From: Methanofollis sp. W23
GTDB taxonomy: Archaea; Halobacteriota; Methanomicrobia; Methanomicrobiales; Methanofollaceae
Reading direction: 5' to 3'
Length of the DNA stretch: 64,000 nucleotides
Assembly: GCF_017875325.1 (NCBI RefSeq)
Contig: NZ_JAGGMN010000001.1
Coordinates: 62,001-126,000, forward strand
Shown here: piece by piece, positions 40,599 through 61,725 of the stretch
How positions within the stretch are numbered: position 1 is the stretch's first letter
How the letters are laid out: each line of letters begins with the position of its first letter
The notes under the pieces: generated by a model
Told to the model about the DNA's origin: nothing
Seen by the model: only the letters and a program-made list of their open reading frames with translations
Database searches by the model: none
Made by a program: the position numbers and the translations under genes

Positions 40599-40615
40599 GG
40601 CCGGTGACGTTGGCG

Positions 40616-41707
40616 ATGAGAGGGCAGGTGGAGACAGAACAGAGAGCTGCAGAACGGCTCTATGCGATCGCGGAGCGGTGGTATGGGCAACTCAGCGAGG
40701 GACAGATCCCCTCGATCGCCCTCCCGACCAGGACCAAGCAGAATATCGAGTACGATGAGGAGAGCGGGGTCTGGAAGTACGGGAACCGCGAGAGTGTGCG
40801 GTCGGCGCAGACGGCGAAGGGTGCGGTCCATCTCCTGAAGATGGCATATGTGGTCGGGTTCCTGAAGCAGCAACTTGCCGAGAACCGTTCTTCGACCTTG
40901 AGGGAGATGTACTACATCTCTGAGGGCTGGAAGCAGGCGAAGTTCTCGGCGCAGGACGAGTCCAACAGGCTTGTCGAGGACCTGGAGATCCTCACCGACA
41001 TCCAGCGCGAGGTCTACCATCTCCGCCCTGAGGAGGACGGCGCCTCGCTCTTCGGGCCGATCCGGGTGCGCGAGGAGACCAGACGGGGGATGCGCGAGAT
41101 CCACTGTCAGGACGACGTGGGGGAGACCGGGTATCAGATCCCGAACAATGTCGACGCCCTGGAGTTCGTGGACCATGACGCCAACTTCGTCATCGCCCTG
41201 GAGACCGGCGGTATGTATGCACGTCTCATTGAGAACGGGTTCGACGAGAAGTACGGCGCCGCCCTCGTCCACCTGAAGGGCCAGCCGGCGCGTTCCACCC
41301 GCCGACTTCTCAAGCGCCTCCACGAGGAGTTCACACTCCCGGTGATCGTCTTCACCGACGGCGACCCCTGGTCGTACCGGATCTATGCCTCGGTGGCCTA
41401 CGGCTCGATCAAGGCGGCGCATATGTCTGAATTGCTCGCCACGCCGCAGGCGCAGTTTGTCGGGGTGCAGCCTTCGGATATCCGGGACTATGACCTGCCC
41501 GCGGATCACCTCTCCGACCAGGACGTGAATGCGCTGAAGGCGGAGCTGACCGATCCGCGCTTCGCGACCGACTACTGGCGGGAGCAGATCGGGCTGCAAC
41601 TGGAGATGGGGCTGAAGGCGGAACAGCAGGCGTTTGCGGCGCAGGGGCTGGATTTTGTGACGAGGGAGTATTTGCCGGCGCGGTTGTCAGAGATGGGGGT
41701 GCTGTAG
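40616..41707 (+). CDS. top6A: DNA topoisomerase VI subunit A (Spo11-like)
   Basis: 363 residues from the ATG at 40616; the frame also has a GTG at 40604. The winged-helix domain includes [13 protein letters not shown] with catalytic tyrosine expected as the second Tyr (Tyr100). The Toprim domain shows [11 protein letters not shown] and [15 protein letters not shown] (acidic metal ligands). Cleaves DNA in complex with subunit B, which is encoded 5 kb away on the opposite strand (33785-35587), although the two genes are adjacent in many archaea. The deacetylase gene starts 4 bp after its stop. Confidence 0.95.
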
Positions 41708-41711
41708 GGCC

Positions 41712-43130
41712 GTGGCCGAGCAGCGGGCGCTGATCGGGGTGAAGTATGACGATTCCTACGCGGTCGAGGAGACCTTCCAGCTCTTCAAGATCCCCTGGGA
41801 ATGGTACAATCCCTCACACACCTATGACGTGGTCATCGCCCGCAGAGGGGAGGTCGAGACGGGCGGGGCCTATCTCGTCGACCTCTCAGAGAAAGACTAT
41901 TTTGCTGAGATCGCACGGATCTTGAACGAGGGTCTCCCTCACTGCCACGAACCGGCGGTCGAGATCCTCATCGATGAACTGCGCCAGATCTTGAAGGAAC
42001 ATACCCTCCTCGTGGAGATCCCGCCGGTGCCATGGGGTTACTCGTACATCGTCGCCCTGACCCATGACGTGGACATCACCTCGGTGCGTGAGCGACGCTG
42101 GATCTCGGTGGGGTATGCGGTGTACCAGTGCCTGCGGAAGGGCATGGTGCAGGACGCCGCCAGGATCCTCGGTGCGAAATGCGGGGTCGGAAAAGACCCC
42201 TGGAACTGCTTTGAGGAGTGGATGCGCCTAGAGGAAGACCTCGGCGTGCGCTCGACCTGGTTCTTCCTGCCCGAGAAGGAGAAGGCGGGGGAGGGTGCGC
42301 CCGCGATCCGGGCGGGGTATTACGACCTCGACCCTGCGTTGATCAAGACGTTGACCGACGGCGGCTGGGAGGTCGGGGTGCACGGGCTTGACAACTGGCA
42401 TGACGCCAGTGCGGCGCGGGAAGAGTTGCAGAAGGTTTCAGCCCTCTCCTGTGCGGAGGTGGGGACGCGCGTCCACTGGTTGCTCTTTGATGCCGACTCC
42501 TGGAAGAAACTTGACGAGGCCAGCTATGCCTATGACTCGACCTTTGGGTACAACGACGATGTGGGCTTCAGGGCGGGGACGATGCAGCCCTACCGGCCGC
42601 GCGGGTGTGAGCGCTTGCTGGAGGTGCCGTTGATCATCCAGGACGGCGGTCTGTTTGGGGGAAAGACCTGGAACTCGTCTGATGACGGGGGCCGTGGGGC
42701 GTGCCTCCGCCTCTCCGAGGAGGAAGGGATGCGCCGGTGCGAAGAGATGCTGGCGTATGCGAAACAGTATGGGGGGGTCGTCACTGTTCTCTGGCATCAG
42801 GTGAGCATGGCGGCACCGAAGAGATGGGGGGAGTTTTATCGGGTGCTGGTGGAGAAGGCGATCGCGGATGGGGCGTGGGTGGCGCCGGTTGAGGATGTCG
42901 CGCGATGGTTTGATCAGAGGAGAGAGAGTTTTCCCGATTATCATTGGAATGAAGATGTTATATCAACCTCTATTATGGGCATAGAGGCAAGTGCTGACAT
43001 GCCATCTTTTTCTTTTCGTCTGCATGTAAAACCTGGTTCTCTGCGATCGATCTCTGGAACCCATCGGAGGGGAGATACTTCTGTAGATCTGAAATATGAA
43101 CAGAAAGATATCAGGATTGGTTTATTATGA
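41712..43130 (+). CDS. polysaccharide deacetylase-like protein, island-edge copy
   Basis: 472 residues, GTG start with VKYDDSYAVEE retained. NodB-type motifs: ALTHDVDI (115-122), STWFFLP, GWEVGVHGLDNWH (219-230; H224 and H230) and VLWHQVS; the same series as the deacetylase at 1602. An N-terminal domain of 110 residues precedes it. The codon composition is GC-rich to about 42.92 kb; the last 65-70 codons (from about YHWNEDV) turn AT-rich, so the C-terminus looks recombined. The stop overlaps the following FemAB-like gene by 4 bp (ATGA), so they are coupled. Confidence 0.8.
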   Translation: MAEQRALIGVKYDDSYAVEETFQLFKIPWEWYNPSHTYDVVIARRGEVETGGAYLVDLSEKDYFAEIARILNEGLPHCHEPAVEILIDELRQILKEHTLLVEIPPVPWGYSYIVALTHDVDITSVRERRWISVGYAVYQCLRKGMVQDAARILGAKCGVGKDPWNCFEEWMRLEEDLGVRSTWFFLPEKEKAGEGAPAIRAGYYDLDPALIKTLTDGGWEVGVHGLDNWHDASAAREELQKVSALSCAEVGTRVHWLLFDADSWKKLDEASYAYDSTFGYNDDVGFRAGTMQPYRPRGCERLLEVPLIIQDGGLFGGKTWNSSDDGGRGACLRLSEEEGMRRCEEMLAYAKQYGGVVTVLWHQVSMAAPKRWGEFYRVLVEKAIADGAWVAPVEDVARWFDQRRESFPDYHWNEDVISTSIMGIEASADMPSFSFRLHVKPGSLRSISGTHRRGDTSVDLKYEQKDIRIGLL

Positions 43131-44119
43131 TCAAATTTGAGATGCTCGACGATGGGGATGAATGGAATCGAGTTGTTAGGGCATCGCCGTATGGAACAGT
43201 CTTCCATACATTTGAGTGGATGGATGTTCTTGAGCAACAGTATAAGGTACAAAAGATACCCCTGGGCATTTTTGAGAATGGGGATCTGATCGGGGTATTT
43301 CCTGCGTTTTTGCAAAGGAAAGGTATCTTTAATATTCTTGTGTCCCCATTGCATGAGGCGGCTACCCCCTATGCGGGTCCGGTTGTTGGGAATAATAAAT
43401 TAAGTGATGTAATCCGAGCTTTTGATATCTATTCGGAATGTGCAGATTATTATGATATTACATTCTCACCCGGATATGTTTATGACGACAATGTCTTGGA
43501 AAATCTCGATTTTCAGGAGCGTTATACGTATATCTTGAATCTTGATCAGTCAATTGATATAATCTGGAAAAATCTTAACAAAAAATGTCGGAATGCAATT
43601 CGAAAGGCAAAAAAATCAGATGTCACGATTGTTGAAGGTAATTCTCAAAGGGATCTTGAAGACTTCTGGGAAATGATAGAAGTTACCTTTCAAAAATGGG
43701 ATACCGAATCTCCGATTTCGGTTGACTATACCAGAGCGGTTTATGATGCTTTTTCCCAGAATGAGCAGTTCAAAATGATTTTCGCAGAGCGTGATGGAGA
43801 ACGTATTGGAGGAGCAATTTTTCTGTGCTTTGCTGACAAGATCTATTATTGGCAAGGTGCTTCATATCCAGACTATTATCGGTATGCACCGAACAATCTG
43901 ATCCAGTGGCATATCATCCAATGGGCTGTACAGAATGGGTTCAGGATATATGATATGCTTGGAGCAAATATCCCTAGTATTGCAAAGTTTAAGAGTAGCT
44001 TTGGTGGTGATCTGGTCAGTTATTCATATCTCTATAAATCACACTCATCACTTGCAGATGCAGGGAGGGGTGCATATGTATGGTGGCGTAAAAATGTTAA
44101 ACGAGATCTCTATAGATGA
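43127..44119 (+). CDS. FemAB/BioF2-like GNAT-fold acyltransferase
   Basis: 330 residues, a homologue of the acyltransferase at 232-1239. ASPYGTVFHTFEWMDVL matches SPSGSLFHTSQWL; LNKKCRNAIRKAKKS matches the helical signature; C-terminal YYWQGASYPDYYRYAPNNLIQWHIIQWA is the second GNAT motif. Translationally coupled to the deacetylase through ATGA. Base composition is low GC, unlike the upstream part of the deacetylase. Likely acylates an amino group of a sugar. Confidence 0.8.
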   Translation: MIKFEMLDDGDEWNRVVRASPYGTVFHTFEWMDVLEQQYKVQKIPLGIFENGDLIGVFPAFLQRKGIFNILVSPLHEAATPYAGPVVGNNKLSDVIRAFDIYSECADYYDITFSPGYVYDDNVLENLDFQERYTYILNLDQSIDIIWKNLNKKCRNAIRKAKKSDVTIVEGNSQRDLEDFWEMIEVTFQKWDTESPISVDYTRAVYDAFSQNEQFKMIFAERDGERIGGAIFLCFADKIYYWQGASYPDYYRYAPNNLIQWHIIQWAVQNGFRIYDMLGANIPSIAKFKSSFGGDLVSYSYLYKSHSSLADAGRGAYVWWRKNVKRDLYR

Positions 44120-44181
44120 TGTTTGCTTGGAATCTTAGGGTTCTATGACCATAAATATCTATATCATACTTTCTGGAGGGT

Positions 44182-44949
44182 ATGATGGTAAAATTTAGTA
44201 GATTCTGGCAAAATCATTGGGATAGTAAGGCAAGACACCAGATATCAGATTACGAACTCGATCGTGGTTCCGCCTTGAAAAATGGGAGATCTGATTCACT
44301 TAATGATCCTATATACGATTTCTGTGACCTTGGACACGGCGAATGTCTTCTTGACGCTGGTTGTGGAACTGGAATAAATATTAGAAGGTTTGGACCACAA
44401 TTTAAGAGGATTATTGGTGTAGATATCTCATATGAAATGCTAAAGAGAGCAAAAAAGAGAATAGATTCTGAAAATTTAGAGAATTCCGAAGTGGTTGTTG
44501 GTACTATCAATTGCTTGGGGTTCAAGAACGATTGTTTTGATAAAACTATATGTTATAGTGTCCTTCAGTATCTCTGTGATGAGGTAAGTGAAGCAGCATT
44601 GATGGATCTTATCAGGGTATCAAAAGAAAATTCAGTAATAATTATTCATGTAAAAAATAAGTTTTCGCTCTATGGATTGACCTTATGTTTCTCAAAAACT
44701 ATTGCTCGTTTACTGAAATATGATGTAATTCCTGAGTATTATCGGCCCTATTGGTATTATAAGAATATTATGGGCGATCTTGGTGCTCAGTTTGTGGATT
44801 CTAGTTCATCCGGTTTGTTTCAGGTATTTTTCTTTCCCGAATCATGCAGGAGATTTTTGTACCGTTTTGAGATCCCATTCAAAAATAATTTCTTTTTTAA
44901 AAATCTCGGAGTTGACTGCTGGATGAAGTTCATAGTTGTCAGGAAGTGA
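44182..44949 (+). CDS. class I SAM-dependent methyltransferase
   Basis: 255 residues; two ATG codons in tandem at the start, GGAGGG 2-4 bases upstream. Motif I ECLLDAGCGTGINIRRF, post-I IIGVDISYEML; LDLLLC-type late region with YPEYYRPYWYYKN-like aromatic residues. Methylates a small molecule or sugar, unassigned. AT-rich (island gene). Its end overlaps by 19 bp the upstream open frame of the next glycosyltransferase, whose ATG is 44954. Confidence 0.75.
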   Translation: MMVKFSRFWQNHWDSKARHQISDYELDRGSALKNGRSDSLNDPIYDFCDLGHGECLLDAGCGTGINIRRFGPQFKRIIGVDISYEMLKRAKKRIDSENLENSEVVVGTINCLGFKNDCFDKTICYSVLQYLCDEVSEAALMDLIRVSKENSVIIIHVKNKFSLYGLTLCFSKTIARLLKYDVIPEYYRPYWYYKNIMGDLGAQFVDSSSSGLFQVFFFPESCRRFLYRFEIPFKNNFFFKNLGVDCWMKFIVVRK

Positions 44950-44953
44950 TCAT

Positions 44954-46093
44954 ATGAAGGTATGTATGCTTACAACGGTTCATGCTCCGTTTGATGACCG
45001 TATATTTCATAAAGAAGCGAAAAGTCTTGCGAAAGTGTATGATGTCGTACTTATCGCACCGTCTGATGAAGTTATCAATACGAGAATTGATGGTGTCAGG
45101 GTCATAACCGTTAAAAAACCAAAAGATAAATTACTTCATCCTCTTACGCTGTGGCGAGTATTTATTGCAGGTCTGAAACAGGACTGTGATGTTTATCACT
45201 GCCATGAACCAAGTTCACTTCTCGTTGCTACAATGCTGAAATTCATCCGGAGAAAAAAAATTATTTATGATGTACATGAATATTATCCTTCAATAATTGC
45301 AGGAGATCTGTTATTCCCCCCTATAATACGTCCATTTATTCATCGTATCGCTGATATAGGGGAAACATTGATGGCACGATGTGCAGATGCGATTATTATT
45401 GTTAGAGACGATCTAAAAAAGAGATTTTCTACTGTGTCTAATAGAGATGTTGAAACAATATTTGTTTATCCGGATTCTAGATTATTTCTTGAAATTGAAC
45501 GGTCTCCGGCTCTCTATAGTCCTAGGTCTGTGATATATGAAGGGGGGGTAGATATCCGAAAAAGAGGGCTTGATAAATATTTATATGCACTGAAATCGCT
45601 CTCTAAAAAATATCCTGATATTATTTTTAAGATCGTTGGAGTGATCCCGGGATCTGATTTAGAATGGGCAAACCAATTTGTGATGAGGAATGGTCTTGAA
45701 TCCAACTTTGATGTCCATGATTGGGTGAACTATGCGGATGTTCCTAAATATTTGGTCAATTCAGGTGTGGGGGTGATTCTTTTCCAACCTGTGAGTTATA
45801 ATAACATTATGGGGATCCCGAATAAGTTATTTGACTACATGGCCGCGGGAATCCCGGTTGTTGCAAGTAACAATCCAAATATATCTCGTATAGTTGAGGA
45901 TTCAAATTGTGGAATTCTCGTTGACCCCATGGATGACCATATGATCGCAGATGCGATTGATTATCTGTTTGAAAATCCAGATGTTGCACGGCAATTTGGG
46001 AAAAATGGTCGAGATGCTATTAAAACAAAATATAACTGGATTAATATGGAGAAAAAACTGTTGGGTCTATATAAAAAAATTGCTGTACATTAA
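44954..46093 (+). CDS. GT4-type glycosyltransferase
   Basis: 379 residues from the ATG at 44954. GT-B fold: N-terminal MKVCMLTTVHAPFDDRIFHKEAKSLAK; Lys/Glu donor loop region near 290-300 (GIPNKLFDYMAAGIPVVASNNPNISRIVEDSN), which is the EX7E-like motif of GT4. It transfers a sugar from a nucleotide donor to the growing glycan on the cytoplasmic face. Neighbours: methyltransferase upstream and wecC downstream after 262 bp. Confidence 0.85.
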   Translation: MKVCMLTTVHAPFDDRIFHKEAKSLAKVYDVVLIAPSDEVINTRIDGVRVITVKKPKDKLLHPLTLWRVFIAGLKQDCDVYHCHEPSSLLVATMLKFIRRKKIIYDVHEYYPSIIAGDLLFPPIIRPFIHRIADIGETLMARCADAIIIVRDDLKKRFSTVSNRDVETIFVYPDSRLFLEIERSPALYSPRSVIYEGGVDIRKRGLDKYLYALKSLSKKYPDIIFKIVGVIPGSDLEWANQFVMRNGLESNFDVHDWVNYADVPKYLVNSGVGVILFQPVSYNNIMGIPNKLFDYMAAGIPVVASNNPNISRIVEDSNCGILVDPMDDHMIADAIDYLFENPDVARQFGKNGRDAIKTKYNWINMEKKLLGLYKKIAVH

Positions 46094-46355
46094 ATGAGGT
46101 TCCGTGGATTTTTTCAATCATGGCAGTAATTTATAGATCCCAACTTCTTTCTTGATGGTGTGAGGAATCATTTTGATTCTTTCTTCCTCCTACCTGGACA
46201 AGAGACCTTCTACAGAACCGCCCTGTATTCATATTGGCGTTAGTATAGGTTATTATATAGCATATTAATACATTACATATATTTACGCAAACTTAGAATC
46301 GAAGGCTTGTTAACAGAATGTACAGGTTACTGAATTCATTAAATGCAGAGATACC
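46094..46355. promoter_or_regulatory. island spacer with TATA region before wecC
   Basis: 262 bp without a gene. Contains an isolated element terminus CTTCTACAGAACC near 46209-46221 with no partner, so a fragment of the dispersed element lies even inside the AT-rich island. TTATTATATAGC near 46250 and further TATA-like blocks could promote the wecC-wecB unit. Confidence 0.4.
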
Positions 46356-47630
46356 ATGAAAAAGATATGTGTTGTTGGTTTAGGTTATATAGGCCTCCCA
46401 ACGTCGCTACTGTTTGCTACAAATGGATATGATGTCGTTGGAATAGATGTCGACGCCAATAAAGTCGAGTCTATAAATCGTGGAACAATGCCATTTGAAG
46501 AGGCAGGCTTTCAGTGTCTTCTTGATGAGGCTCTGGATGCAAACACTTTCAGAGCATCAAAAATACCTGAAGAGTCTGATATTTTCTTAATTGCAGTTCC
46601 TACACCGTTTGATAAGGGAAATCGAATGGCGGATCTGCATTATGTTATTGAAGCCTGTCGGAGTATTGCGCCATTTATTAAAAAATCGGACCTAATCGTT
46701 ATTGAATCAACTATACCTCCAGGTACCTGTGAAAATTGTGTGGTGCCTATTCTGGAAAATATGTGCAATGGAGGAAAAGGTGGATTGAAGGTTCAGCAAG
46801 ACTTTTATCTTGCTCATTGCCCTGAAAGGGCGATTCCAGGAAATACCTACTATGAAATGGTTCATAACGATCGGGTTGTTGGAGGGATTGATGAAAAATC
46901 TGCTCTGTTAACGAAAAAAATATATCAAAGTTTTGTGAAGGGAGATATCTTCACGACGTCTGTAAAAATCGCTGAGATAGTCAAGCTTATGGAGAATACA
47001 TATCGGGATATCAATATTGCACTTGCAAATGAGTTCGCTCAGATTGCTGATGAAGTTGGAATAAATGTATGGGAAGCGATTGAACTTGCCAATAAGCATC
47101 CTCGTGTCAGTATTCTAAAACCTGGGCCAGGTGTAGGAGGTCATTGTATTGCAGTCGACCCCTGGTTTTTAACCGAAGATTCGACAAAAAGCCGAATAAT
47201 ATCCCTTTCACGGGATATTAATGATGGTATGCCAAAATATGTATTGCGCACCATAAAAGAAATTATTAAAAATTTAAATCCAAGAGATATTATAATTACC
47301 GTATTTGGTGTGGCATATAAGGGGAATATTGATGATACAAGAGAAACACCGGCATTAAAGTTTATTTTGTTAGCGGAAAAAGAGGGTTATACGGTGAATG
47401 TTTATGATCCCCATGTAAAAGATCGACGTTTTAACCTCCTTCCTCTTAAGGATGCAGTTAAGAATAGTGATTGTATTGTAGTCATTACTGATCACAATGA
47501 ATTTAATTCACTTCCTGTTGAAGAAATTGGAGATATTATGAAGACAAAAAATATCTATGACACACGAAATTGTCTTGATCATAAAAGGTGGGAAAACGCT
47601 GGGTTTGTTGTAAAAGTCCTGGGGAAATAA
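46356..47630 (+). CDS. wecC: UDP-N-acetyl-D-mannosamine dehydrogenase
   Basis: 424 residues. UDP-glucose/ManNAc dehydrogenase family: NAD motif GLGYIGLPTSLLFA (8-21), ESTIPPGTCE, active-site cysteine in PGPGVGGHCIAVDPWF, and late GVAYKGNIDDTRETPAL. With WecB it makes UDP-ManNAcA from UDP-GlcNAc. The stop lies 2 bp before the wecB ATG, an operon. AT-rich codon use. Confidence 0.9.
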   Translation: MKKICVVGLGYIGLPTSLLFATNGYDVVGIDVDANKVESINRGTMPFEEAGFQCLLDEALDANTFRASKIPEESDIFLIAVPTPFDKGNRMADLHYVIEACRSIAPFIKKSDLIVIESTIPPGTCENCVVPILENMCNGGKGGLKVQQDFYLAHCPERAIPGNTYYEMVHNDRVVGGIDEKSALLTKKIYQSFVKGDIFTTSVKIAEIVKLMENTYRDINIALANEFAQIADEVGINVWEAIELANKHPRVSILKPGPGVGGHCIAVDPWFLTEDSTKSRIISLSRDINDGMPKYVLRTIKEIIKNLNPRDIIITVFGVAYKGNIDDTRETPALKFILLAEKEGYTVNVYDPHVKDRRFNLLPLKDAVKNSDCIVVITDHNEFNSLPVEEIGDIMKTKNIYDTRNCLDHKRWENAGFVVKVLGK

Positions 47631-47632
47631 CA

Positions 47633-48706
47633 ATGCTGTCAATAGTCGTAGGTACACGTCCAGAAATCATAAAAATGTCTCCGATAATAAGGTACTGCCA
47701 AGAAAAAAATATTGAATTCAACATTATTCATACTAACCAGCATTACTCATATGATATGGACAGGATTTTTTTTGAAGATCTGAATCTGCCTGAACCGAAC
47801 TTCAATCTTGAGATCGGATCAGGTACTCCCGGTGATCAGACCGGGAAAATGCTGTCTAAAATTGAAACTGTCCTGATGAAAGAGAAACCAGGAATTGTTT
47901 TGGTTCAAGGGGATACAAATAGTGTCCTTGCAGGGGCACTTGCCGCATCCAAATTGCATATCCCTGTTGCTCATGTAGAGGCGGGATTACGTTCATTCGA
48001 TAGAAATATGCCTGAAGAAATAAATCGTATTCTGACAGATCACATTGCGGATTATCTTTTCGCACCAACAAATATCTCGAAGGAGAATCTCATACATGAG
48101 GGAATAATCTCTGGAGTTTCTGTTGTTGGGAATACAATTGTTGATGCAACTTATCAAAATCTTAATATTGCAAATGATAAATCCACTATCCTTCAGGATC
48201 TCGGTCTGAAAAAAGGGGATTATTTTTTAGTTACTTTACACAGAGCAGAAAATGTTGATGATAAGGATATATTGAGCAATATATTATCTTCATTGAGTAA
48301 TCTCTCTAAAATCTATGCGGAACCAATACTATTCCCTGTACATCCCAGAACTGAAAAGATGATACAGACGTTCAACTTAAGTTCTTCTTTGAATGGAATT
48401 ACCTGTATTAAACCAGTTGGATATCTGGATTTTTTAGTACTGGAGGGTAATGCACGATTAGTACTGACTGATTCTGGTGGTGTTCAGGAAGAAACCTGTA
48501 TCTTGAATATTCCTTGTGTAACTTTACGGGATACTACAGAACGTCCTGAAACTATTGACGCTGAAAAGAATATTCTTGCAGGTCGGGAGCCAGGGACTAT
48601 TATCTCATGTGTTAAAAGTATGTTCGTCAAAAAAATCTCCAATCAAAATCCCTTTGGGAGCGGGGATTCTGGAAAGCAAATTGTTGAGATTTTAACGAAG
48701 TGTTGA
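47633..48706 (+). CDS. wecB: UDP-N-acetylglucosamine 2-epimerase (island copy)
   Basis: 357 residues from the ATG at 47633, directly after wecC. Non-hydrolysing epimerase motifs: VVGTRPEIIKM, VQGDTNSVLAGALAASKLHIPVAHVEAGLRSFDRNMPEE, LTLHRAEN-like VTLHRAEN and DSGGVQEET. Converts UDP-GlcNAc to UDP-ManNAc for WecC. A second copy lies at 56979 with GC-rich codon use. The two are orthologous in motif order but clearly diverged. Confidence 0.93.
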   Translation: MLSIVVGTRPEIIKMSPIIRYCQEKNIEFNIIHTNQHYSYDMDRIFFEDLNLPEPNFNLEIGSGTPGDQTGKMLSKIETVLMKEKPGIVLVQGDTNSVLAGALAASKLHIPVAHVEAGLRSFDRNMPEEINRILTDHIADYLFAPTNISKENLIHEGIISGVSVVGNTIVDATYQNLNIANDKSTILQDLGLKKGDYFLVTLHRAENVDDKDILSNILSSLSNLSKIYAEPILFPVHPRTEKMIQTFNLSSSLNGITCIKPVGYLDFLVLEGNARLVLTDSGGVQEETCILNIPCVTLRDTTERPETIDAEKNILAGREPGTIISCVKSMFVKKISNQNPFGSGDSGKQIVEILTKC

Positions 48707-48732
48707 GATGCACATAATATGAGAATTATACT

Positions 48733-49995
48733 ATGACGATTGATCCAGAAAATCCGATGCCATTGCATGTTGCAATTACAGGGGTATCTGATACTTTTAA
48801 TTATGGCACTATGATGATGGGTATTAATTTTATGTACTACCTAAAAAAAAAAGTGCCTAACATACATTATTTTACCGATGCGATGACTGAAGAGGATCTT
48901 CTTCGCTTGCGATATGAAACAGGTATAAACAGCGAAATAAAACAATTAAATGAATTTGAATGTATTAACCTGACAATTAAACGGCCTTTTTCTTATTTGG
49001 TGGCATATTGTCGATTTTTCCGTTCTCTGAAAAAAAATGCTATAAATAACATTGTTGTCTTGGGTGGGGATACTCTATCTGAATATTATGCAACAAGTTA
49101 TCTTGGATTAATAAAGAGACTTGTAATGAATATATATGTTCCATCTCTGTTTTGTGATCATATCTTTCTGATAGGGCATACTATTGGTCCATTTCATTCA
49201 TGGAGAGTTCCAGCTGTTCGAATGATATTTAATAGAAAAAAAATTCTTATTTCTACCCGGGATTATTTGAATTATACTTATTCCCAGCAGATATTGGGAT
49301 TAAATAATATTTTTGACAGTGCTGATCTTGCATTTCTAGATTTGCCAAAGCAAAGTGAAGCGTCATTTGAGAGCATACTCTCTACCTATGAATTGAAAAA
49401 AAATCGGTACATTTCTGTTGTTCCCTCAGGATTATGGAGACATTATCATAATAACTGGGATGAGTATATTCAAATGTGGTGTGATATTATCCAATATTTG
49501 AACACATCTGAGAAAACTTCCCATTATAATATCGTTCTGTTACCTCATGTAGTTAGGCCCGAGCATCTCGATGATCGACGAGTTATCAGAGAGATCTGTC
49601 AGCGAATAGATTCTAACAATATAATCCCTATTTATGATGAATTGATGCCCAGTCAGGCAAGATGTATCCTTGGGAATGGTTATTTCACAATAACAGGGAG
49701 GATGCATGCTGCTGTGTCAACATTTCAGATGAATAAACCTGCAATTTGCCTTTCATATTCGGCAAAATATAAAGGTGTTATTGGTGAGGGGCTAAAAAGG
49801 AATGATCTGATCATTGAGGCGACAGATGATAGTTTATATCGCAACAGGGTATTGGCCAAGGTCGTTGCAGACAAGGTGGATTATATTGATAATAACTACC
49901 CTTCGTTAATCAGGGAAATAAAATCTGAAGTGATGAAGGCCCGGGAAAATGCTATCTTTCAGATTGATCTTGTTAAAGATACATTGATAAGGTAA
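48733..49995 (+). CDS. polysaccharide pyruvyltransferase-like protein
   Basis: 420 residues. Family pattern: N-terminal HVAITGVSDTFNYGTMMMG, mid VVLGGDTLSEYY, and C-terminal GYFTITGRMHAAVSTFQMNKPAICLSYSAKYKGV with the conserved R/H of pyruvyl transferases (CsaB/WcaK type). Adds pyruvate ketals to surface sugars from phosphoenolpyruvate. Next to an FrhB-like protein, a combination common in glycan clusters. Start ATG 26 bp after wecB. Confidence 0.8.
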   Translation: MTIDPENPMPLHVAITGVSDTFNYGTMMMGINFMYYLKKKVPNIHYFTDAMTEEDLLRLRYETGINSEIKQLNEFECINLTIKRPFSYLVAYCRFFRSLKKNAINNIVVLGGDTLSEYYATSYLGLIKRLVMNIYVPSLFCDHIFLIGHTIGPFHSWRVPAVRMIFNRKKILISTRDYLNYTYSQQILGLNNIFDSADLAFLDLPKQSEASFESILSTYELKKNRYISVVPSGLWRHYHNNWDEYIQMWCDIIQYLNTSEKTSHYNIVLLPHVVRPEHLDDRRVIREICQRIDSNNIIPIYDELMPSQARCILGNGYFTITGRMHAAVSTFQMNKPAICLSYSAKYKGVIGEGLKRNDLIIEATDDSLYRNRVLAKVVADKVDYIDNNYPSLIREIKSEVMKARENAIFQIDLVKDTLIR

Positions 49996-49999
49996 TAGT

Positions 50000-51202
50000 G
50001 TGACCTCAAAGTTGTTACATCTTGCAAAAGATGCTTGTGTCGGTTGTTTTGGTTGTTTTTCTTCCTGCCCGTTCGATGCAGTTGAAATGAGATTGGATGA
50101 TTACGGTTTTTATTATCCTTACTTTGATAGTTCTAAGTGTAAGAATTGTGGGAAGTGTGAAAATTACTGCCCTGTTTTGAATTATGAGTATTCTAATTGG
50201 GTAGAACCAGAGGTCTTCGCTGCGAGAAGTAATGATTTTGAGTTACTTATGAAGGGTTCCTCTGGTGGGATTTTTGGAGAGATTGCATTGAGTGTACTAC
50301 AGGCTGGAGGTGTAGTGTATGGTGCTGGGTGGGATGATAATTTTCAACTAAGGCATGTATCTGTGGATTGTCCCGATAAACTCGAGAAACTTTTTGGTTC
50401 TAAATATGTCCAGAGTTATACTGGGAAAGTGTATTCTGAAATAATAACATTGGCGAAAAAAGGTCGATTTGTTCTTTTTTGTGGAACCCCATGCCAGGTG
50501 GCAGCATTAAAAATTGCAATTAATAAAATGAAAGATGTGCGGCAGAATATAATATTATGTGATCTTATTTGTCAGGGCGTAGGTTCTTCTGCAGTGTTCA
50601 GAAAGTACCTTGATCATCACAAAAAAAAATTCTGTGGAGATATTACTTCGATATCATTTCGATCCAAAAAACACGGTTGGATGGATTTTTCTATGGAGAT
50701 TTGTTTCTCAAATCATGAAAAATACATCTGTAGCAGAAAGTTTGATCCCTATCTTGTTGGTTACTCAAATGCATTATATTTGAGACCCTCCTGTTATGAT
50801 TGTCCATTTTCTAAGATCCCGCGCCAGGGGGATATAACGTTGGGAGATTTTTGGAGATCTCCAAAGGAAGTTTATAATCATTGGGGTACTTCATTGGTTG
50901 TTATTAATAATCAATGGGGCAAGAAGGTATTTGACAGGGTGTGCAAAGAAAGAAAAATCGAAGTAAAAGCGTATCTCCTAGATGCCGCTCTGCAATCCAA
51001 CAAGAGATTGTCGTGTGGCAAACTTTCTATCCCTGATAACCGTGCTGATTTTTTTTCTGACCTAAAGTGTCAAACATTTGATAGGATCATTGAGGGTTAC
51101 TTAAAAAGAAACATCTCTGTGGATTATTTGAAACACAAGGTGAATCAATACGTATTGTGGGGATTAAGTTCTTCCAGATTGCGTAGATTTTTCCTAAAAT
51201 AG
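50000..51202 (+). CDS. FrhB-like (coenzyme F420 hydrogenase beta family) iron-sulfur protein
   Basis: 400 residues, GTG start. The N-terminus has two [4Fe-4S] ferredoxin motifs: CVGCFGCFSSCPFDAV and CKNCGKCENYCPVL (residues 12-60). Then an FrhB/FdhB core: GSSGGIFGEIALSVL, FCGTPCQVAALK, and C-terminal domain with CYDCPFSKIPRQGDITLGDFW. Family members in F420 hydrogenases bind flavin and F420. In glycan clusters such proteins accompany pyruvyltransferases and are thought to reduce a sugar intermediate; substrate is inferred. Confidence 0.82.
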   Translation: MTSKLLHLAKDACVGCFGCFSSCPFDAVEMRLDDYGFYYPYFDSSKCKNCGKCENYCPVLNYEYSNWVEPEVFAARSNDFELLMKGSSGGIFGEIALSVLQAGGVVYGAGWDDNFQLRHVSVDCPDKLEKLFGSKYVQSYTGKVYSEIITLAKKGRFVLFCGTPCQVAALKIAINKMKDVRQNIILCDLICQGVGSSAVFRKYLDHHKKKFCGDITSISFRSKKHGWMDFSMEICFSNHEKYICSRKFDPYLVGYSNALYLRPSCYDCPFSKIPRQGDITLGDFWRSPKEVYNHWGTSLVVINNQWGKKVFDRVCKERKIEVKAYLLDAALQSNKRLSCGKLSIPDNRADFFSDLKCQTFDRIIEGYLKRNISVDYLKHKVNQYVLWGLSSSRLRRFFLK

Positions 51203-51303
51203 GTTGAGGTTTGTTATCCTTTTCATTCCTTGTGAGATCTTGCTATCTTTTTTAAAACTGATAATTGTAGGTCTTGGAGTGATATAGGGATATTCTAGGT
51301 TAT
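51203..51303. terminator. convergent terminator region
   Basis: A 101-bp spacer between convergent genes with TCCTTTTCATT (about 51218-51229) and CTTTTTTAAAA (51247-51258); oligo-T runs on the plus strand, fitting termination of the island's forward operon. Confidence 0.35.
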
Positions 51304-52548
51304 TTATTGCAGATATTTTTCAACTTCTTTGGATAAGTTACGATAACTGAAATCTTCCAGTTTGATGGTTTCTATTTCATAACTCGGGTTAGATTTCCAA
51401 AGATCATATAATTTGAATATTGAATCTTTAATCTCTTGGTAATTATCTCCATTTGTGCTTATTCCAAGATTGTGTTCTTTTATGAGTTTATCAATTTCTC
51501 CTCCATAATTAATGCTTAGTGTTGGACGTTTTAGAGCTCCGTATTCATATATTTTGGTCGATACAAGATATGGATATTTTCTGGCGTTAAATTGTAAACA
51601 CACGAAGGATTTGGAGATATGTCTTAGAATTTCCTGGGGAGAGATGGGGTTTGAAATTGTAATATGTCCTTTTTCAAAGAGTCTATTGTAATGTTTTTCG
51701 ATCGATGCATCAACATAACCATATATCTCAATGTTCATTTCAGGGATATTGTCGATTATATCATCCACTACGTTTAAAAATGATGATAATGGCTCTTCAC
51801 GCCCTTCAAACAGATTTCCTGCATATATAAATGAGAAGTCCCTATTTTCTGTAGGTATCTGTTCCAGTCCAGTTAGATCGTAGCCGTTTGGGAGGACGAT
51901 CTTTTCGACAGGATTAACTATTCTATCCGATAATCTCTCTAAAAGGCCTGATGTTACAGTAAATAGGACGTCACAGTTATTTAACGCATATCTCTCGTGC
52001 GATTCTGATCTTTTTTTAATGGTGGCTAGATAATATTTATGCGACGGGTCATCGTTCCATGGATCCTGAATATCCTGAATTAGTTTGATCTTAGGAATTT
52101 CTGATTTCAATTTAGCGGCCCAATAATTTACCATAAATGGATGGCCTGTTGCAATTACTGTTTTTATGCCTTCTTTTTCTATGATCTTTTTACAGTATGG
52201 GATCATATTGTATCCCCAATACTGTGCTTCATCCTCATACCAGATTATATTTAGCAAATTTAATAATCCAAATCGGACTATTTTTTTTAGTCCCCCGAAT
52301 AAATTTGATGGATATTTTTTATATTTGTAGTTGTGGAAATATGATGATGGAATACGATGAATTATGATATTTGGTGAATCTATATCATTCTGATTGGTAT
52401 TCAAACCCAGGTTCCGCCATTTAACTGTTATTACATGGATTTTATATCCTCGTTCTGCCAGATATTTGCTGAGCTTTGCCCATCGGAAACCCCCTACGCC
52501 AGCAAAAGGGGGGAATTTGTACGCAATCAGTAAAATAGACTTTTCCAT
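51304..52548 (-). CDS. GT-B type glycosyltransferase
   Basis: 414 residues. N-terminal ILLIAYKFPPFAGVGGFRWAKLSKYLAERGYKIHVIT typical of GT4/5 enzymes; TVIATGHPFMVNYWAA and late TKIYEYGALKRPTLSINYGGEIDKLIKEHNLGI resembles the donor-binding glutamates. Transfers a sugar to the surface glycan. Oriented against the main island operon, followed by a methyltransferase upstream on the same strand with a 130-bp gap. Confidence 0.8.
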   Translation of the reverse strand: MEKSILLIAYKFPPFAGVGGFRWAKLSKYLAERGYKIHVITVKWRNLGLNTNQNDIDSPNIIIHRIPSSYFHNYKYKKYPSNLFGGLKKIVRFGLLNLLNIIWYEDEAQYWGYNMIPYCKKIIEKEGIKTVIATGHPFMVNYWAAKLKSEIPKIKLIQDIQDPWNDDPSHKYYLATIKKRSESHERYALNNCDVLFTVTSGLLERLSDRIVNPVEKIVLPNGYDLTGLEQIPTENRDFSFIYAGNLFEGREEPLSSFLNVVDDIIDNIPEMNIEIYGYVDASIEKHYNRLFEKGHITISNPISPQEILRHISKSFVCLQFNARKYPYLVSTKIYEYGALKRPTLSINYGGEIDKLIKEHNLGISTNGDNYQEIKDSIFKLYDLWKSNPSYEIETIKLEDFSYRNLSKEVEKYLQ

Positions 52549-52678
52549 GCTCCACCTCTAACATTGGGTGTCATTGTTATATTAGATGTACTCTTCTGTT
52601 TGGTTTAAGATAGAAACGATCCCCTCAGAATAAAAAAGGTGATCTATTGTTTGTTTTCTTTATATCCTGTGTGGGTTG

Positions 52679-53281
52679 TTAAATACAAATGGGGGGTTCC
52701 TGGTTGGATATATCATGTGACAATACATATATATTCCAGTGACCAAATCTCGATTTAATTGGGATTATTAGATGTTTATTTTTGTATGTGGGTATGACAA
52801 TATTGAATCTCTCTATCTTTTCGATTTTTAATGAAGACCGCCGGGATAACTGCTTTATTTCATTCTCACCGAAGAGATTAACATGGTAGGGGGCGTTTGT
52901 ATTTCGATTTCGAATTATGAGCGTTGCTAACTCTATAATGCTGTACGGATTTGGGACTGAGATTACTATTGTTGATCTACTTACACGAGCTGCTTCTTTC
53001 AATGCAGCTAAGGGGTTTTCAAGATGTTCCAATACTTCAAATAATGTAACGGTGTCGAAGCTCTGGTTTTTAAATGGCAAGTTATAGAGGTTGCCCTGTA
53101 TGTCGCAACCATCACCTTTCATATCCAATCCAATATAATTTGTTCTGTTTTTGTCTAGATATTGTTTTAATTCGCCTTTGTTACATCCTAAATCGAGTAT
53201 TCTCCCTGAACAGTATTTTGACACGGTTTTTAGACGTAGCTCATCTTCCGTGTGCCGATGTACATCCATGTCGGGCATCAT
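52679..53281 (-). CDS. class I SAM-dependent methyltransferase (COQ5/UbiE-like)
   Basis: 200 residues. Motif I GRILDLGCNKGELKQYL and DxxGxx region VIGLDMKGDGC; TVTLFEVLEHLENPLAALKEAARVSRSTIVISVPNP is a classic methyltransferase-fold sequence. AT-rich. Two Met at the start (53281, 53278). Located at the right of the island before the flippase on the other strand. Confidence 0.78.
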   Translation of the reverse strand: MMPDMDVHRHTEDELRLKTVSKYCSGRILDLGCNKGELKQYLDKNRTNYIGLDMKGDGCDIQGNLYNLPFKNQSFDTVTLFEVLEHLENPLAALKEAARVSRSTIVISVPNPYSIIELATLIIRNRNTNAPYHVNLFGENEIKQLSRRSSLKIEKIERFNIVIPTYKNKHLIIPIKSRFGHWNIYVLSHDISNQEPPICI

Positions 53282-53714
53282 ACTATAGTCTGTCGTGCCA
53301 GTAATTAAGTTTCATTTTGAATACATAGAAATACACAGACGCAATAATTGAGTTGCCCAAATTTGGTGCTTTATATCCTAATTTCTGATTTTTTGAAATT
53401 ATTGAGTTTGAGATGTTGCACATCTGATTGAATCGGTAAAAATCCTCTTAACGGGGTACTGGGGAACAGAAGTTTGGGTGATCAAAATGTCTGGGAAAAA
53501 GAGAATGATATGTCATATGTTGTTTTGAGGGGGGGAATTTGTTCTCTGGTTATCTTGAGGAACACTAAGTATTCTAGAGTTTGTGTTCTCCCTTCAGATA
53601 TCTCCTATATCCACTGAGAGGAACGCAGGACTATTTACTGAATGCAGTAAATAGTGTGTACAAAGAGTTTCTAGAGGGCCAAGTTATTATTGGGATTCCC
53701 TCATATATCAAACC
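53282..53714. other. AT-rich island spacer
   Basis: 433 bp divergent region between a methyltransferase and flippase copy 2. No repeat element of the dispersed family is recognised. Short T-runs and TATA-like blocks occur (for example TTATATCC near 53372). It may hold promoters for both sides, none convincingly mapped. Confidence 0.35.
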
Positions 53715-55193
53715 GTGTTTTCTCGATTTCGCTACTTCTCTCGCATCATGGGTATCGATCCAGTCCGTCGGCAGAGCCTGATCAGTCTCGCCTCTGCTGT
53801 AGGGCTTACTTTTTTTGGATTCCTTGCCACGATGTATTTTGCTCACGTACTTGGTAAGGCTGCATATGGGGTCTATGCCCTTTTTCTTGCTTATTATGGT
53901 ATTTTTAATCTTATCGGAGATGGGGGCTTTGGTGGCGCAGCAGTAAAGCGGATTTCTGAAGGAAGAGAACAGAATGAGTATTTCACAGCTTTTCTCGTAC
54001 TCAGGGTGATCCTTCTTGCGCTCTCGGTGACCGCGCTCCTTGCCCTCCGCTCGTTCATCGACGATCTTCAGGGTGAAGGGATAGTGTTCTGGGTGATGCT
54101 TGCACTTATCATTGCTGTGTTCCTGGGAGTTACTGCAAATGGTATCTATGGCGAAGGGAAGGTTGGCGTGAACCAGAGCGGGGCTTTCCTGAATAACCTT
54201 GTAAAAATTGTTCTCCAGGTTGTTGCCGTCTTCTTTGGGTATGGTGCCGCCGGACTTGCCGGCGGGTTCGTCGCTGGTCTTTTTGCTGGGGGTCTCTTCA
54301 ACCTCAGGTTCCTCTCTCTCAAACTGGCACGGTTCACCGGGCACCACTTGCGGAACCTCATCACTTTCTCCTTCTGGATCTTTCTTGCTTCCAGCGGTGC
54401 TACCATCTTCTCGTACGCCGACACGGTCCTCATTGGCTACTTCATGTCCACTGCCGACGTCGGGGTCTACCGGATCGCCTTCCAGTTCACCGCGGCCGCC
54501 ACCTTCACCACCACAGCGCTCCGTACTACTCTGTATCCAAAGATCAGCCGCTGGCACGCCGACCGGCACCCCACCTGGATCGCCAATTCCCTCTCCCGTG
54601 CCTTCACCTACTCCCTCCTCCTCGCCGTCCCCGTCGCAGTCGGCGGCTGGATCCTCGGCGACCGCCTCCTCTACTTCTTCTATGGTGCAGGGTTTGCCGA
54701 AGGGGCGGCGGTGCTCGGGATCCTCCTCCTGGTGCAGGTGGTCAACGTCTTCATGTACCTCCAGACGATGGCCCTCAATGCCATCGACCGCCCCCGCGAA
54801 TCCTTCTATGCCACCGGGACGGCGGCGGTCGTGAACATCGTCCTCGACCTCGCCCTCATCCCCACCCTCGGGATCGAGGGGGCGGCGATCGCCACGCTCG
54901 TGACGATGCTCGTCAATGCCGCAATCGCCCGCCACTATCTTGCAAAACAGATCTCGGTGCACCTCGAGCGCGGCCCCACCTTCCACATCCTTCTCGCGGC
55001 CGGGCTGATGGCCCTCGTAATCCTCCTGTACCGTTTGCTCGTCCCCCTCGCCAACGTCTTCGTCGTCCTCGCCGCCGTCGCCCTCGGCGGGATTATCTAC
55101 GGCCTGGTGCTCCTGAAAGCCGACCGCGGTATCCACGACGAACTCCGCGACCTAGTCGTGCAACTCGGGGTGCCCTGGCCGCGGTGGCTGTGA
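53715..55193 (+). CDS. Wzx-type polysaccharide flippase, copy 2 (mosaic)
   Basis: 492 residues, GTG start, same length and architecture as copy 1 at 14588. The first 250-300 bp use AT-rich codons (for example line 53881-53940, 24 GC of 60 by hand count) and the rest is GC-rich. The region 54808-54940 is identical to 15681-15813 over 133 bp, including third positions. This looks like an AT-rich allele joined to the local GC-rich copy by gene conversion. The function is export of lipid-linked oligosaccharide. It marks the right border of the island. Confidence 0.9.
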   Translation: MFSRFRYFSRIMGIDPVRRQSLISLASAVGLTFFGFLATMYFAHVLGKAAYGVYALFLAYYGIFNLIGDGGFGGAAVKRISEGREQNEYFTAFLVLRVILLALSVTALLALRSFIDDLQGEGIVFWVMLALIIAVFLGVTANGIYGEGKVGVNQSGAFLNNLVKIVLQVVAVFFGYGAAGLAGGFVAGLFAGGLFNLRFLSLKLARFTGHHLRNLITFSFWIFLASSGATIFSYADTVLIGYFMSTADVGVYRIAFQFTAAATFTTTALRTTLYPKISRWHADRHPTWIANSLSRAFTYSLLLAVPVAVGGWILGDRLLYFFYGAGFAEGAAVLGILLLVQVVNVFMYLQTMALNAIDRPRESFYATGTAAVVNIVLDLALIPTLGIEGAAIATLVTMLVNAAIARHYLAKQISVHLERGPTFHILLAAGLMALVILLYRLLVPLANVFVVLAAVALGGIIYGLVLLKADRGIHDELRDLVVQLGVPWPRWL

Positions 55194-56771: not shown

Positions 56772-56978
56772 AATCGAGAAGATGCGTTGCGCACTGGAGT
56801 CCCCGCTGAGTGAGTGATCGATCCGCACACTGTCACCCAGATGATCTTCATGAAAGGTGCCCTCTGTCAGAACGCTCGACACATGTTCTCTACTGTTTTG
56901 TAGCCCGTCCCTCCTGTGCCCTACACCGCACCACAGTATCGCAACCCTCATCCTCCCCCCGCCCAAACCATCTTCAGC

Positions 56979-58040
56979 ATGAAGATCCTCACCGTCGTCG
57001 GCGCCCGCCCCCAGTTCATCAAGTGCGCCCCGGTCTCACGCGCCCTCCGGAAAGAGCACGAAGAAGTCCTCGTCCACACTGGCCAGCACTATGACCGCGA
57101 GATGTCAGACCTATTCTTTGAGGAACTTGGGATCCCGCGCCCTGACCACAACCTCGGGATCGGTTCAGGCACCCATGGCCACCAGACCGGGGCGATGCTC
57201 GCAGGCATCGAGGACCTGATCCTGCAAGAGGAACCTGATTGTGTCCTCGTGTACGGCGACACCAACTCCACCCTGGCAGGTGCCCTCGCGGCGGCCAAAC
57301 TCCACGTGCCGGTGGCGCACGTCGAGGCTGGGTTGCGGAGTTTTGACCGGCGAATGCCTGAGGAGATCAACCGCGTCCTTACCGACCACTGTTCCGACCT
57401 CCTCCTCGCCCCGACGAGAACCGCGGTGGAGAATCTGGCCTCTGAAGGGATCACCCGCGGCGTCCACCTCACCGGCGACGTGATGGTCGATGCCCTCCTC
57501 GACCACGCCGAACAGGCGCGTCGCTCCTCCTTCCTCGACGACCTCGGCTTGACCGCCGGAGAATATCGCCTCGCCACTGTCCACCGCGCCGAGAACACCG
57601 ACGATCCTGAAAAACTCACTGCGATCGTCAGGGCATTGACCGAGATCGGCAATATCGTCCTCCCCTGCCACCCGAGGACCGAGAAGATGCTCAAGAGTTT
57701 CTGGCTCTGGGAGGAGGCGAACGAAGGCATCAGGATCATCTCGCCGGTCGGCTACCTGGAGATGCTTGCCCTTGAGGCCGGCGCAGCTCAGATCCTCACC
57801 GACTCGGGAGGCGTCCAGAAGGAGGCCTATGTCCTCGGCGTCCCGTGCATCACCATGCGTGAGAGCACCGAGTGGGTCGAGACCGTGCAGGACGGATGGA
57901 ACGTGCTGGTCGGGAGCGATTACGGGGCGATCGTGCGGGCCGCCCGTGAGTTTGTGCCTGAGAAGGAGCGCTCAGATGTTTTCGGGAAGGGGGACGCCGC
58001 AGCGGTGATCGCGAGGGTGATCAGGGAGATGGAGATCTGA
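56979..58040 (+). CDS. wecB: UDP-N-acetylglucosamine 2-epimerase (second copy)
   Basis: 353 residues from the ATG at 56979; upstream in-frame codons are ignored because MKILTVVGARPQFIK is the normal start. Motifs as in the island copy: GARPQFIK, VYGDTNSTLAGALAAAKLHVPVAHVEAGLRSFDRRMPEE, ATVHRAEN, DSGGVQKEA. The GC-rich composition suits the host chromosome. No wecC is adjacent. It may be the ancestral gene while the island brought its own. Confidence 0.93.
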   Translation: MKILTVVGARPQFIKCAPVSRALRKEHEEVLVHTGQHYDREMSDLFFEELGIPRPDHNLGIGSGTHGHQTGAMLAGIEDLILQEEPDCVLVYGDTNSTLAGALAAAKLHVPVAHVEAGLRSFDRRMPEEINRVLTDHCSDLLLAPTRTAVENLASEGITRGVHLTGDVMVDALLDHAEQARRSSFLDDLGLTAGEYRLATVHRAENTDDPEKLTAIVRALTEIGNIVLPCHPRTEKMLKSFWLWEEANEGIRIISPVGYLEMLALEAGAAQILTDSGGVQKEAYVLGVPCITMRESTEWVETVQDGWNVLVGSDYGAIVRAAREFVPEKERSDVFGKGDAAAVIARVIREMEI

Positions 58041-58853: not shown

Positions 58854-58963
58854 AGTTACGGGCATTATAGGGGGCGAGGTCTACACTGATCCTCATCTCC
58901 CCGGGAGGATCGAGATCCTCTACAATAATGATTATATTCATAATAATAATATTCATAATCACT

Positions 58964-60346
58964 ATGAGGTTCTACGGCAGGGAGGCGGAACTCGGGCTGA
59001 TGGAGCACCTGTATGCCACCGCGCCCTCATTTCTGGTCATCACCGGCAGACGGCGGGTCGGGAAGACCGAACTGATCAAGGAGTTCTGCAAAGGAAAACA
59101 AACCCTTTATTTCTACGTGGATGCGAACAAGAGCATCGACGTTATGATCGAGGAGTTTGGACGTCTGATGGCGAGGACGCTCGATCTGCCCGGATACATC
59201 AGGCCCGAAACCCCTGAAGACTTCCTCGAATTCCTCTTCTCCTATGAAAAACCCCTCGTTGTCGTCTTCGATGAGTTCCAGCGTTTCCAGAAGGTTTACC
59301 CCTCGTTCATCTCCCAGATGCAACGGTTCTGGGACCTCAAAGGTAGGGAATCAAACCTCTTTCTCATCGTCTCGGGGTCGTCGGTCGGGATGATCAGGAA
59401 GATCTTCCTGGACGGCGACGCCCCCCTTTTCAGGCGGGCCGACAACATCCTCACGCTCCGTCCCTTCGGGCCGGGAGACTGTCTTTCCATCCTCGAAGAC
59501 CTTGGTGTCAGGGATCCTGCGGCACGGCTCGACCTCTATCTTCTCTTTGGCGGGACGATCTACTACTACACCTTCCTGGAGAAGTACGGGTGCACTGATC
59601 TTTCCAGTGCCCTTGACTGTCTCATCCTCAACGACCTCGCCCCGCTCAGGCGGGAGATGAGCGACGTGATGATCGAGGAGTTCGGGCGCGAGCACGCCAC
59701 CTATTACGAGATCCTCGCTGCGATCGCAGAGGGGAAGCAGTCCCAGAAGGAGATCGCCGACGTCATCCATCGCGCCCCGACCTCCCTCCCGCCGTACCTG
59801 CGTGACCTTGTCGATCTCATCGGGATTCTGGAATACCGGGTTCCTGTCACCGAAAAAGGGCGGCGGTCGAAAATGGGGAGATATGTCTTTTCAGACAACT
59901 TCTTCCGGTTCTACGCGCGCTATATCTATCGGAATATGAGCCTGTATGAGGGAGGGCGCTACGACCTCCTGAAGGCCAGGATCCTCTCGGAATGGAAAGG
60001 ATTTTCGGGCTGGGCCTTTGAGGAGATGGTGAAGGCTCTCCTCGCGGTAGAACTGAAGACGCAGTATGAGCAGATGGGCGCGTGGTGGAATCGGCGCGGG
60101 GACGAGATCGACCTCCTGGCCCTGGGGCCGGAGGGGAACCTTGCGGTGGAGATCAAACACCGCGACCTGACACTTCCAGAGGCACGGGGCATCCTCTCCG
60201 CCCTCGAAAAGAAGATCCCTCTGGTGAAAGGACTGTCGGGCCCGACGAGGTTGGGGCTCGTCTGTCGGGCGGTTCAGGAGAAAGAGACGCTGAGAGAGGA
60301 GGGGTATTGTATCAGAGAACTCTCGGACTTCGAGTTTGCGCAGTGA
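58964..60346 (+). CDS. archaeal ATPase with DUF234 nuclease-like C-terminus
   Basis: 460 residues from the ATG at 58964; an upstream AT-rich repeat TATTCATAATAATAAT is promoter-like. Walker A GRRRVGKTELI (about 26-36), Walker B VVVFDEFQRF; then a winged-helix region. The C-terminal DUF234 domain has WAFEEMVKALL, GDEIDLLALG and AVEIKHRD, a PD-(D/E)xK-like E-D-ExK set. These are linked to mobile or defence functions but without a firm role. Lies between toxin-antitoxin modules. Confidence 0.85.
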   Translation: MRFYGREAELGLMEHLYATAPSFLVITGRRRVGKTELIKEFCKGKQTLYFYVDANKSIDVMIEEFGRLMARTLDLPGYIRPETPEDFLEFLFSYEKPLVVVFDEFQRFQKVYPSFISQMQRFWDLKGRESNLFLIVSGSSVGMIRKIFLDGDAPLFRRADNILTLRPFGPGDCLSILEDLGVRDPAARLDLYLLFGGTIYYYTFLEKYGCTDLSSALDCLILNDLAPLRREMSDVMIEEFGREHATYYEILAAIAEGKQSQKEIADVIHRAPTSLPPYLRDLVDLIGILEYRVPVTEKGRRSKMGRYVFSDNFFRFYARYIYRNMSLYEGGRYDLLKARILSEWKGFSGWAFEEMVKALLAVELKTQYEQMGAWWNRRGDEIDLLALGPEGNLAVEIKHRDLTLPEARGILSALEKKIPLVKGLSGPTRLGLVCRAVQEKETLREEGYCIRELSDFEFAQ

Positions 60347-61272: not shown

Positions 61273-61725
61273 CTACCGCTCCACGGCCCTGATATGGTCT
61301 TCGGTCTTCTTGGCCAGGTCTTTTTTCCCCTCGATCCGTGCGACCTCGCGCACCACCTCAAGGGCATGGACCGACTCCTCCAGAAAACCCAGGATATCTG
61401 CCGGGAAGACCTCGATCCCGTATTCTTCCAGGATTGTCTCGCTGATCTGGCGGTGGTCGAGCCCGGTCTCGCGGTATTCAAGGATCGTCTTCGCAAATTT
61501 TCGTTCTGGACACCCGCAGTTGGGGTTGTCTTTGCATTTGCAGGCGAGGAAGTCTCGGTGAATGTTGAGGAGTTGTTCCCTGATATGGTGGTCAAGGGAC
61601 CGGGTGGTCATCGCCAGGGGGATCACCTCAAGAAACGCCGAGTTGAAGACGCGGTCAGGGACCCTGACCTTGATCACCCGCTCGATCTTTCTGGACGAAC
61701 GGAACCTCGCCTTTTCTGCGATCAC
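61273..61725 (-). CDS. DUF5814-type archaeal protein
   Basis: About 150 residues if it begins at the GTG at 61725 that overlaps the DUF2150 stop (GTGA), with GGAG at good spacing; ATG start at 61803 would overlap the upstream gene by 82 bp. Contains a cysteine cluster ACKCKDNPNCGCPERK suggesting a metal site, then helical TILEYRETGLDHRQISETILEEYGIEVFPADILGFLE. Resembles the DUF5814 region found as a helicase C-terminal domain in archaea; function unknown. Translationally coupled to the DUF2150 gene. Confidence 0.65.
   Translation of the reverse strand: MIAEKARFRSSRKIERVIKVRVPDRVFNSAFLEVIPLAMTTRSLDHHIREQLLNIHRDFLACKCKDNPNCGCPERKFAKTILEYRETGLDHRQISETILEEYGIEVFPADILGFLEESVHALEVVREVARIEGKKDLAKKTEDHIRAVER

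Follow-up and report, generated by a model that had tools for sequence, protein, structure and literature searches.

The stretch between the gene for topoisomerase VI subunit A (top6A) and the DUF2150/ThiI region is very probably a replacement-type surface-glycan island, whose place in the chromosome stays the same while the genes in it are exchanged together. The window that we analyzed comprises 64,000 nt of a 2.87-Mb chromosome from the genus Methanofollis, and the island stands out in it as an AT-rich block at 42,905 to about 54,400, with a GC content of 0.36 versus about 0.60 outside. GC falls at about 42,905 from about 0.62 to 0.34-0.40 and recovers between about 54,015 and 54,440; when the whole window is read in 1-kb steps, the lowest step elsewhere is at least 0.486. 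The left composition border lies inside the ORF at 41712-43130 and the right border inside the flippase gene at 53715-55193 (Table 1). An AT-rich cassette with borders inside genes had been proposed in a first-pass annotation of this DNA, and both the GC and the GC3 profiles confirm it. The right border is more gradual than the left, being spread over a zone from about 54,015 to 54,440, and several smaller exchange events are a possible cause of this.

Table 1. Genes and gene segments of the cassette and its flanks, in window coordinates.
Feature	Position	Strand	Role or place	Family evidence
top6B (topoisomerase VI subunit B)	33785..35587	-	Conserved left flank	Pfam
Histidyl-tRNA synthetase	35574-36809	-	Conserved left flank	
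top6A (topoisomerase VI subunit A)	40604..41707	+	Constant left anchor	Pfam
Polysaccharide-deacetylase-like gene, conserved body	41712..42905	+	Left homology arm	
Deacetylase gene, cassette-specific 3' tail (last 75 codons)	42906..43130	+	Recombination border at ~42,905	
FemAB/GNAT-type acyltransferase	43127..44119	+	Cassette	Pfam PF13480, PF02388; NCBIfam pepcterm_femAB below cut-off
SAM-dependent methyltransferase	44182..44949	+	Cassette	Pfam PF13649/PF08241
GT4-type glycosyltransferase	44936..46093	+	Cassette	Pfam PF00534
WecC-type UDP-ManNAc dehydrogenase	46356..47630	+	Cassette	Pfam PF03721/00984/03720; NCBIfam TIGR03026 above cut-off
WecB UDP-GlcNAc 2-epimerase	47588..48706	+	Cassette	Pfam PF02350; TIGR00236 above cut-off
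Polysaccharide pyruvyl transferase	48733..49995	+	Cassette	Pfam PF04230
FrhB/FdhB-like Fe-S protein	50000..51202	+	Cassette	Pfam PF04432/PF04422
GT4-type glycosyltransferase	51304..52548	-	Cassette	Pfam PF13439
SAM-dependent methyltransferase	52679..53281	-	Cassette	Pfam PF13489
Wzx-type flippase, 5' half	53715..54400	+	Cassette-proximal; AT-rich, divergent	Pfam PF13440
Wzx-type flippase, conserved 3' half	54401..55193	+	Right homology arm; GC3 about 0.8-0.97	
WecB-type epimerase no. 2 (WecB2)	56916..58040	+	Conserved right flank	Pfam
DUF234/ATPase_2 protein	58928..60346	+	Right flank in several congeners	Pfam
Gene 61273-61803	61273-61803	-	Right flank, DUF2150 neighbor	
DUF2150 protein	61722..62348	-	Outer right anchor	

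The gene in which the left border falls looks, from its sequence, like a polysaccharide deacetylase. It has no Pfam match, its match to the NCBIfam VimE-deacetylase model is far below the cut-off, and a search of solved structures with it returned no match. The body of the gene is well conserved, with 84-88% nucleotide identity to five orthologs over 41812-42600 and 81-90% amino acid identity between the window and five congeneric copies, while the last 75 codons are only 17-24% identical to these same five copies at the amino acid level and 33-40% identical to every ortholog at the nucleotide level, which is the level of chance. Within the one reading frame, GC3 drops from 0.81 in the body to 0.31 in the tail, and identity to M. 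formosanus (G004) drops from 89% to 41% between adjacent 100-bp steps at 42,912. The genome G002 departs from the window deacetylase at about 42600, some 300 bp earlier, and M. aquaemaris (G001), G005, and G008 have a different tail in common (60-68%). A fast-evolving tail was considered and rejected: in L165-L168, a related group outside the genus, body (82-85%) and tail (76-88%) diverge together, so a high rate of evolution in the tail is not a sufficient explanation.

A comparable split is found in the flippase at the right border. In flippases linked to the cassette, the proximal half is 66.7% identical at the nucleotide level versus 84.0% for the distal half (28 pairs), making the cassette-facing half 17 points more divergent, whereas in flippases located elsewhere the two halves are about equally conserved (88.5% proximal versus 87.0% distal, 15 pairs). 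The 3' half is 79-93% identical across the cassette-linked copies. The window flippase is closer to the type located elsewhere in these genomes, to which its own second copy belongs, than to the type found at the same site in other species. M. aquaemaris and M. formosanus have no flippase at the border, which indicates that the right crossover point varies between genomes; M. formosanus has also lost WecB2 there.

Three further flippase arrangements were observed. The window genome encodes a second flippase at 14588-16066, 38 kb from the cassette flippase, and the two are identical over 133 bp (54808-54940), which suggests local gene conversion. In G010 (L059:6212-7083) an internal flippase piece is inverted beside the 3' part, with no 5' part present, reflecting either an inversion or a draft misassembly. 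Two flippases flank an asparagine-synthase-type gene in G011 (L054:14113-19101, L055:969-1742).

The inverted piece beside the G010 core, and the local gene conversion made possible by the second flippase of the window with its 133-bp identical stretch, are what would be offered in favor of a phase-variable or invertible locus that flips within one genome. We regard such a locus as extremely unlikely, given that a repeat search found no long inverted repeats spanning the window core, that the core contains no recombinase, and that no alternative cassette lies nearby. An additive genomic island, in which an integrase or a transposon would insert and excise cassettes at a fixed attachment site downstream of top6A, is highly unlikely as well. 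This explanation would fit the fixed site, the empty site seen in Methanogenium, and a gene for an IS21-type IstB ATPase in the G011 core. Yet neither an integrase nor a transposase was detected by Pfam in the window core, a tRNA scan found no tRNA genes in the 64-kb window, and a border repeat search found no repeats pairing the left and right borders, so that neither the enzymes nor the att-type border repeats of an additive island were found; moreover, the borders lie in-frame inside homologous ORFs, at positions that vary, as in G002. An Rfam scan of the 64-kb window returned no families.

For the genes between the borders, Pfam and NCBIfam recover the content listed in the first-pass annotation. 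After TIGR03026, the next best NCBIfam models for WecC are UDP-ManNAc dehydrogenases. The TIGR00236 match to WecB begins at amino acid 17, and the real wecB start is probably at about 47636, a few codons downstream of the start of the listed ORF, which overlaps wecC. The pyruvyltransferase and the adjoining FrhB-like gene occur as the same pair in the M. aquaemaris core. The predicted product would be a surface glycan containing ManNAcA, made by WecB and WecC, and decorated with pyruvyl, methyl, and acyl groups; the flippase would export it, and exchange of the cassette would thus alter the sugar coat. The only STT3/AglB-type match of the genome is about 2.4 Mb from the cassette in contig coordinates, and a family search of the window genome did not find the initiating GlcNAc-1-P transferase PF00953.

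We compared the interval after top6A in the eight Methanofollis genomes whose core was mapped, one genome per species, counting a gene of at least 150 aa as shared if the other genome had, at the corresponding place, a homolog at least 60% identical to it. Core genes were shared in 10 of 441 comparisons (2%), while left flank genes were shared in 137 of 308 (44%) and right flank genes in 195 of 553 (35%); spurious ORFs in the GC-rich DNA probably depress both flank figures. None of the 56 comparisons of window core genes with congeners yielded a shared gene. The cores range from 3.7 to 13.6 kb and are lower in GC than the flanks in all genomes (0.37-0.46 versus 0.59-0.67), and they consist mostly of glycosyltransferases, nucleotide-sugar enzymes, methyltransferases, pyruvyltransferases, and hexapeptide acetyltransferases. 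Cores differ despite similar flanks, as between G005 and G011, with flanking genes at 90-95% nucleotide identity, and among G002, G006, and G008 (93-98%); in the closest pairs the flanks are about 95-98% identical and the cores different. Conserved flanks around a differing core, the check that had been set for this locus, were therefore seen in eight congeneric genomes, each from a different species.

On the left, top6A is 82-92% identical at the nucleotide level in 9 congeners and adjoins the variable core in each congener where the locus could be read. The right neighbors are those of the WecB2/DUF2150/ThiI region, though some are lost locally in G002 and G004, and WecB2 is full-length in 7 congeners (80-90% amino acid identity). 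The bounding genes had initially been described as conserved, and this holds for top6A and the DUF2150/ThiI region, the steadiest anchors; the deacetylase and flippase are better described as mosaic transition genes. Two local features of the flanks may be added: in the window genome, unlike its relatives, the block of top6B and histidyl-tRNA synthetase (33785-36809) lies in inverted orientation with respect to top6A, and the G002 match to WecB2 (L038:15090-15371) covers 94 codons only, 91% identical to those of the window, and is probably a remnant.

The donor of the window core was not found by DNA comparison in 232 genomes of the order, in which the best matches to the core are short wecC/wecB/glycosyltransferase stretches, mostly 63-75% identical. 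About 80 kb upstream of the cassette, the window genome contains a block (L062, window coordinates -38067 to -34403) with 76-80% amino acid identity to a GT2/pyruvyltransferase block that adjoins the top6A cassette in M. formosanus.

A core that appears to have been transplanted is found in G010. The left flank of this genome is 93% identical at the nucleotide level to G006 and G008 over 3.1 kb and 84-85% identical to G011, and its right flank is 86-93% identical to G002 and G006 and 77-82% identical to G011. The G010 core, by comparison, is 93.8% identical to that of G011 over 4,990 bp; G010 is a draft genome in which the flippase is rearranged and the core is split between contigs. The match of G010 to G006 and G008 stops at the top6A stop codon. 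Since core identity exceeds flank identity between these distant species, replacement of the core is indicated. Like islands in divergent backgrounds are thus present in a relaxed sense, with a core at 94% against flanks at about 77-85%, and the G010/G011 event is older than those described in PMC4033161.

Vertical descent with piecemeal gain and loss in an ancestral glycan locus that is AT-rich for reasons of its own, without block exchange, would also generate differing cores. G001 and G005 have a deacetylase/ATP-grasp/PHP/GT block in common at 73-87% amino acid identity, about what vertical descent would predict, and G002 and G006 have only two core genes in common, from which it follows that modules also change singly. 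The transplanted G010/G011 core and the sudden fall in identity inside individual genes argue against this explanation, which we judge very unlikely.

Exchange of the cassette by homologous recombination is well supported by the sequence comparisons, since the border genes are mosaic, a core has been transplanted, and flank identity falls toward the cassette. This fall was from 100% to 95% between G006 and G008 and from 98% to 91% between G006 and G002, scored with synonymous and nonsynonymous changes pooled. The same three observations support the variation by recombination that the first-pass annotation had proposed. We envisage that a donor chromosome fragment with a different cassette and homologous border genes would enter the cell and pair with the resident chromosome, on the left via top6A and the conserved deacetylase body and on the right via the 3' half of the flippase and the WecB2 region. 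A double crossover would then replace everything between the paired arms.

Outside Methanofollis, glycan genes that differ from locus to locus are found downstream of top6A in Methanoregula and Methanocalculus, where the 48 genes scanned included 11 GT4-type and 6 GT2-type glycosyltransferases and several sugar-nucleotide enzymes. Methanocorpusculum has no glycan genes of this kind downstream of top6A, and at three Methanogenium loci and one Methanomicrobiales locus the site is empty, top6A being followed immediately by homologs of 61273-61803 and DUF2150. A Methanoregula locus (L108) carries at the same place a deacetylase/hexapeptide/AMP-binding/LuxE/LuxC set of the G004 type (31-63% amino acid identity), and a Methanomicrobiales MAG (L104) carries, again at the same place, a methyltransferase/deacetylase/ATP-grasp/PHP/GT set of the G001/G005 type (40-62%). 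The likeness of these two loci to Methanofollis cassettes may reflect either inter-family exchange or old shared ancestry. It is quite possible, though we propose it only tentatively, that glycan exchange takes place at the site after top6A throughout the order and that a common cassette pool circulates among Methanomicrobiales. A full-text search, outside of which most subscription journals lie, found no paper on topoisomerase VI with polysaccharide clusters in Methanomicrobiales.

Bacterial capsule and O-antigen loci combine constant flanks with a variable glycan core, recombination in the flanks, and a Wzx-type flippase. The Methanofollis site has each of these features, and the constant flanks and variable core of the eight congeners agree with the likeness to bacterial serotype-switching loci that had been suggested at the outset. 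Pneumococcal cps is an example of such a switching locus (PMC5850285). The Methanofollis site differs in its archaeal host, and the cassette is known here from its sequence. With regard to a Wzx/Wzy-type locus, a flippase and glycosyltransferases are present, and Wzy was not among the families recognized in the general Pfam scan. Among archaea, N-glycosylation gene clusters vary in Haloferax (PMC5867893). Both there and here the glycan gene clusters of archaea vary from species to species, but no oligosaccharyltransferase was seen in the Methanofollis cassette.

The closest parallel is provided by replacement flexible genomic islands (Lopez-Perez et al. 2014, PMC4033161), including the cell-wall island GI1 of Haloquadratum walsbyi (PMC4535781). 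As in those islands, an equivalent position with the same neighboring genes holds different genes of similar function, divergence rises at the borders, near-identical islands occur in divergent backgrounds, and there is no integrase hallmark. Unlike them, the Methanofollis island is found in methanogens, the exchange seen is between species where theirs is among strains of a single species, its breakpoints lie inside two border genes, and the site is used in several genera of the order. It is therefore a known type of island, with the methanogen host, the inter-species range, and the multi-genus site as features of its own.

Replacement glycan islands have so far come mainly from bacteria and one haloarchaeon (PMC4033161, PMC4535781). 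By analogy with the islands and clusters described in other organisms (PMC4033161, PMC4535781, PMC5867893), selection by viruses on the cassette is plausible, and M. aquaemaris has been reported to be virus-infected (PMC9583781). With a well-bounded case in a methanogen, with in-gene breakpoints and a transplanted core, surface variation and virus sensitivity become directly testable, and the cassette may find use as a typing locus.
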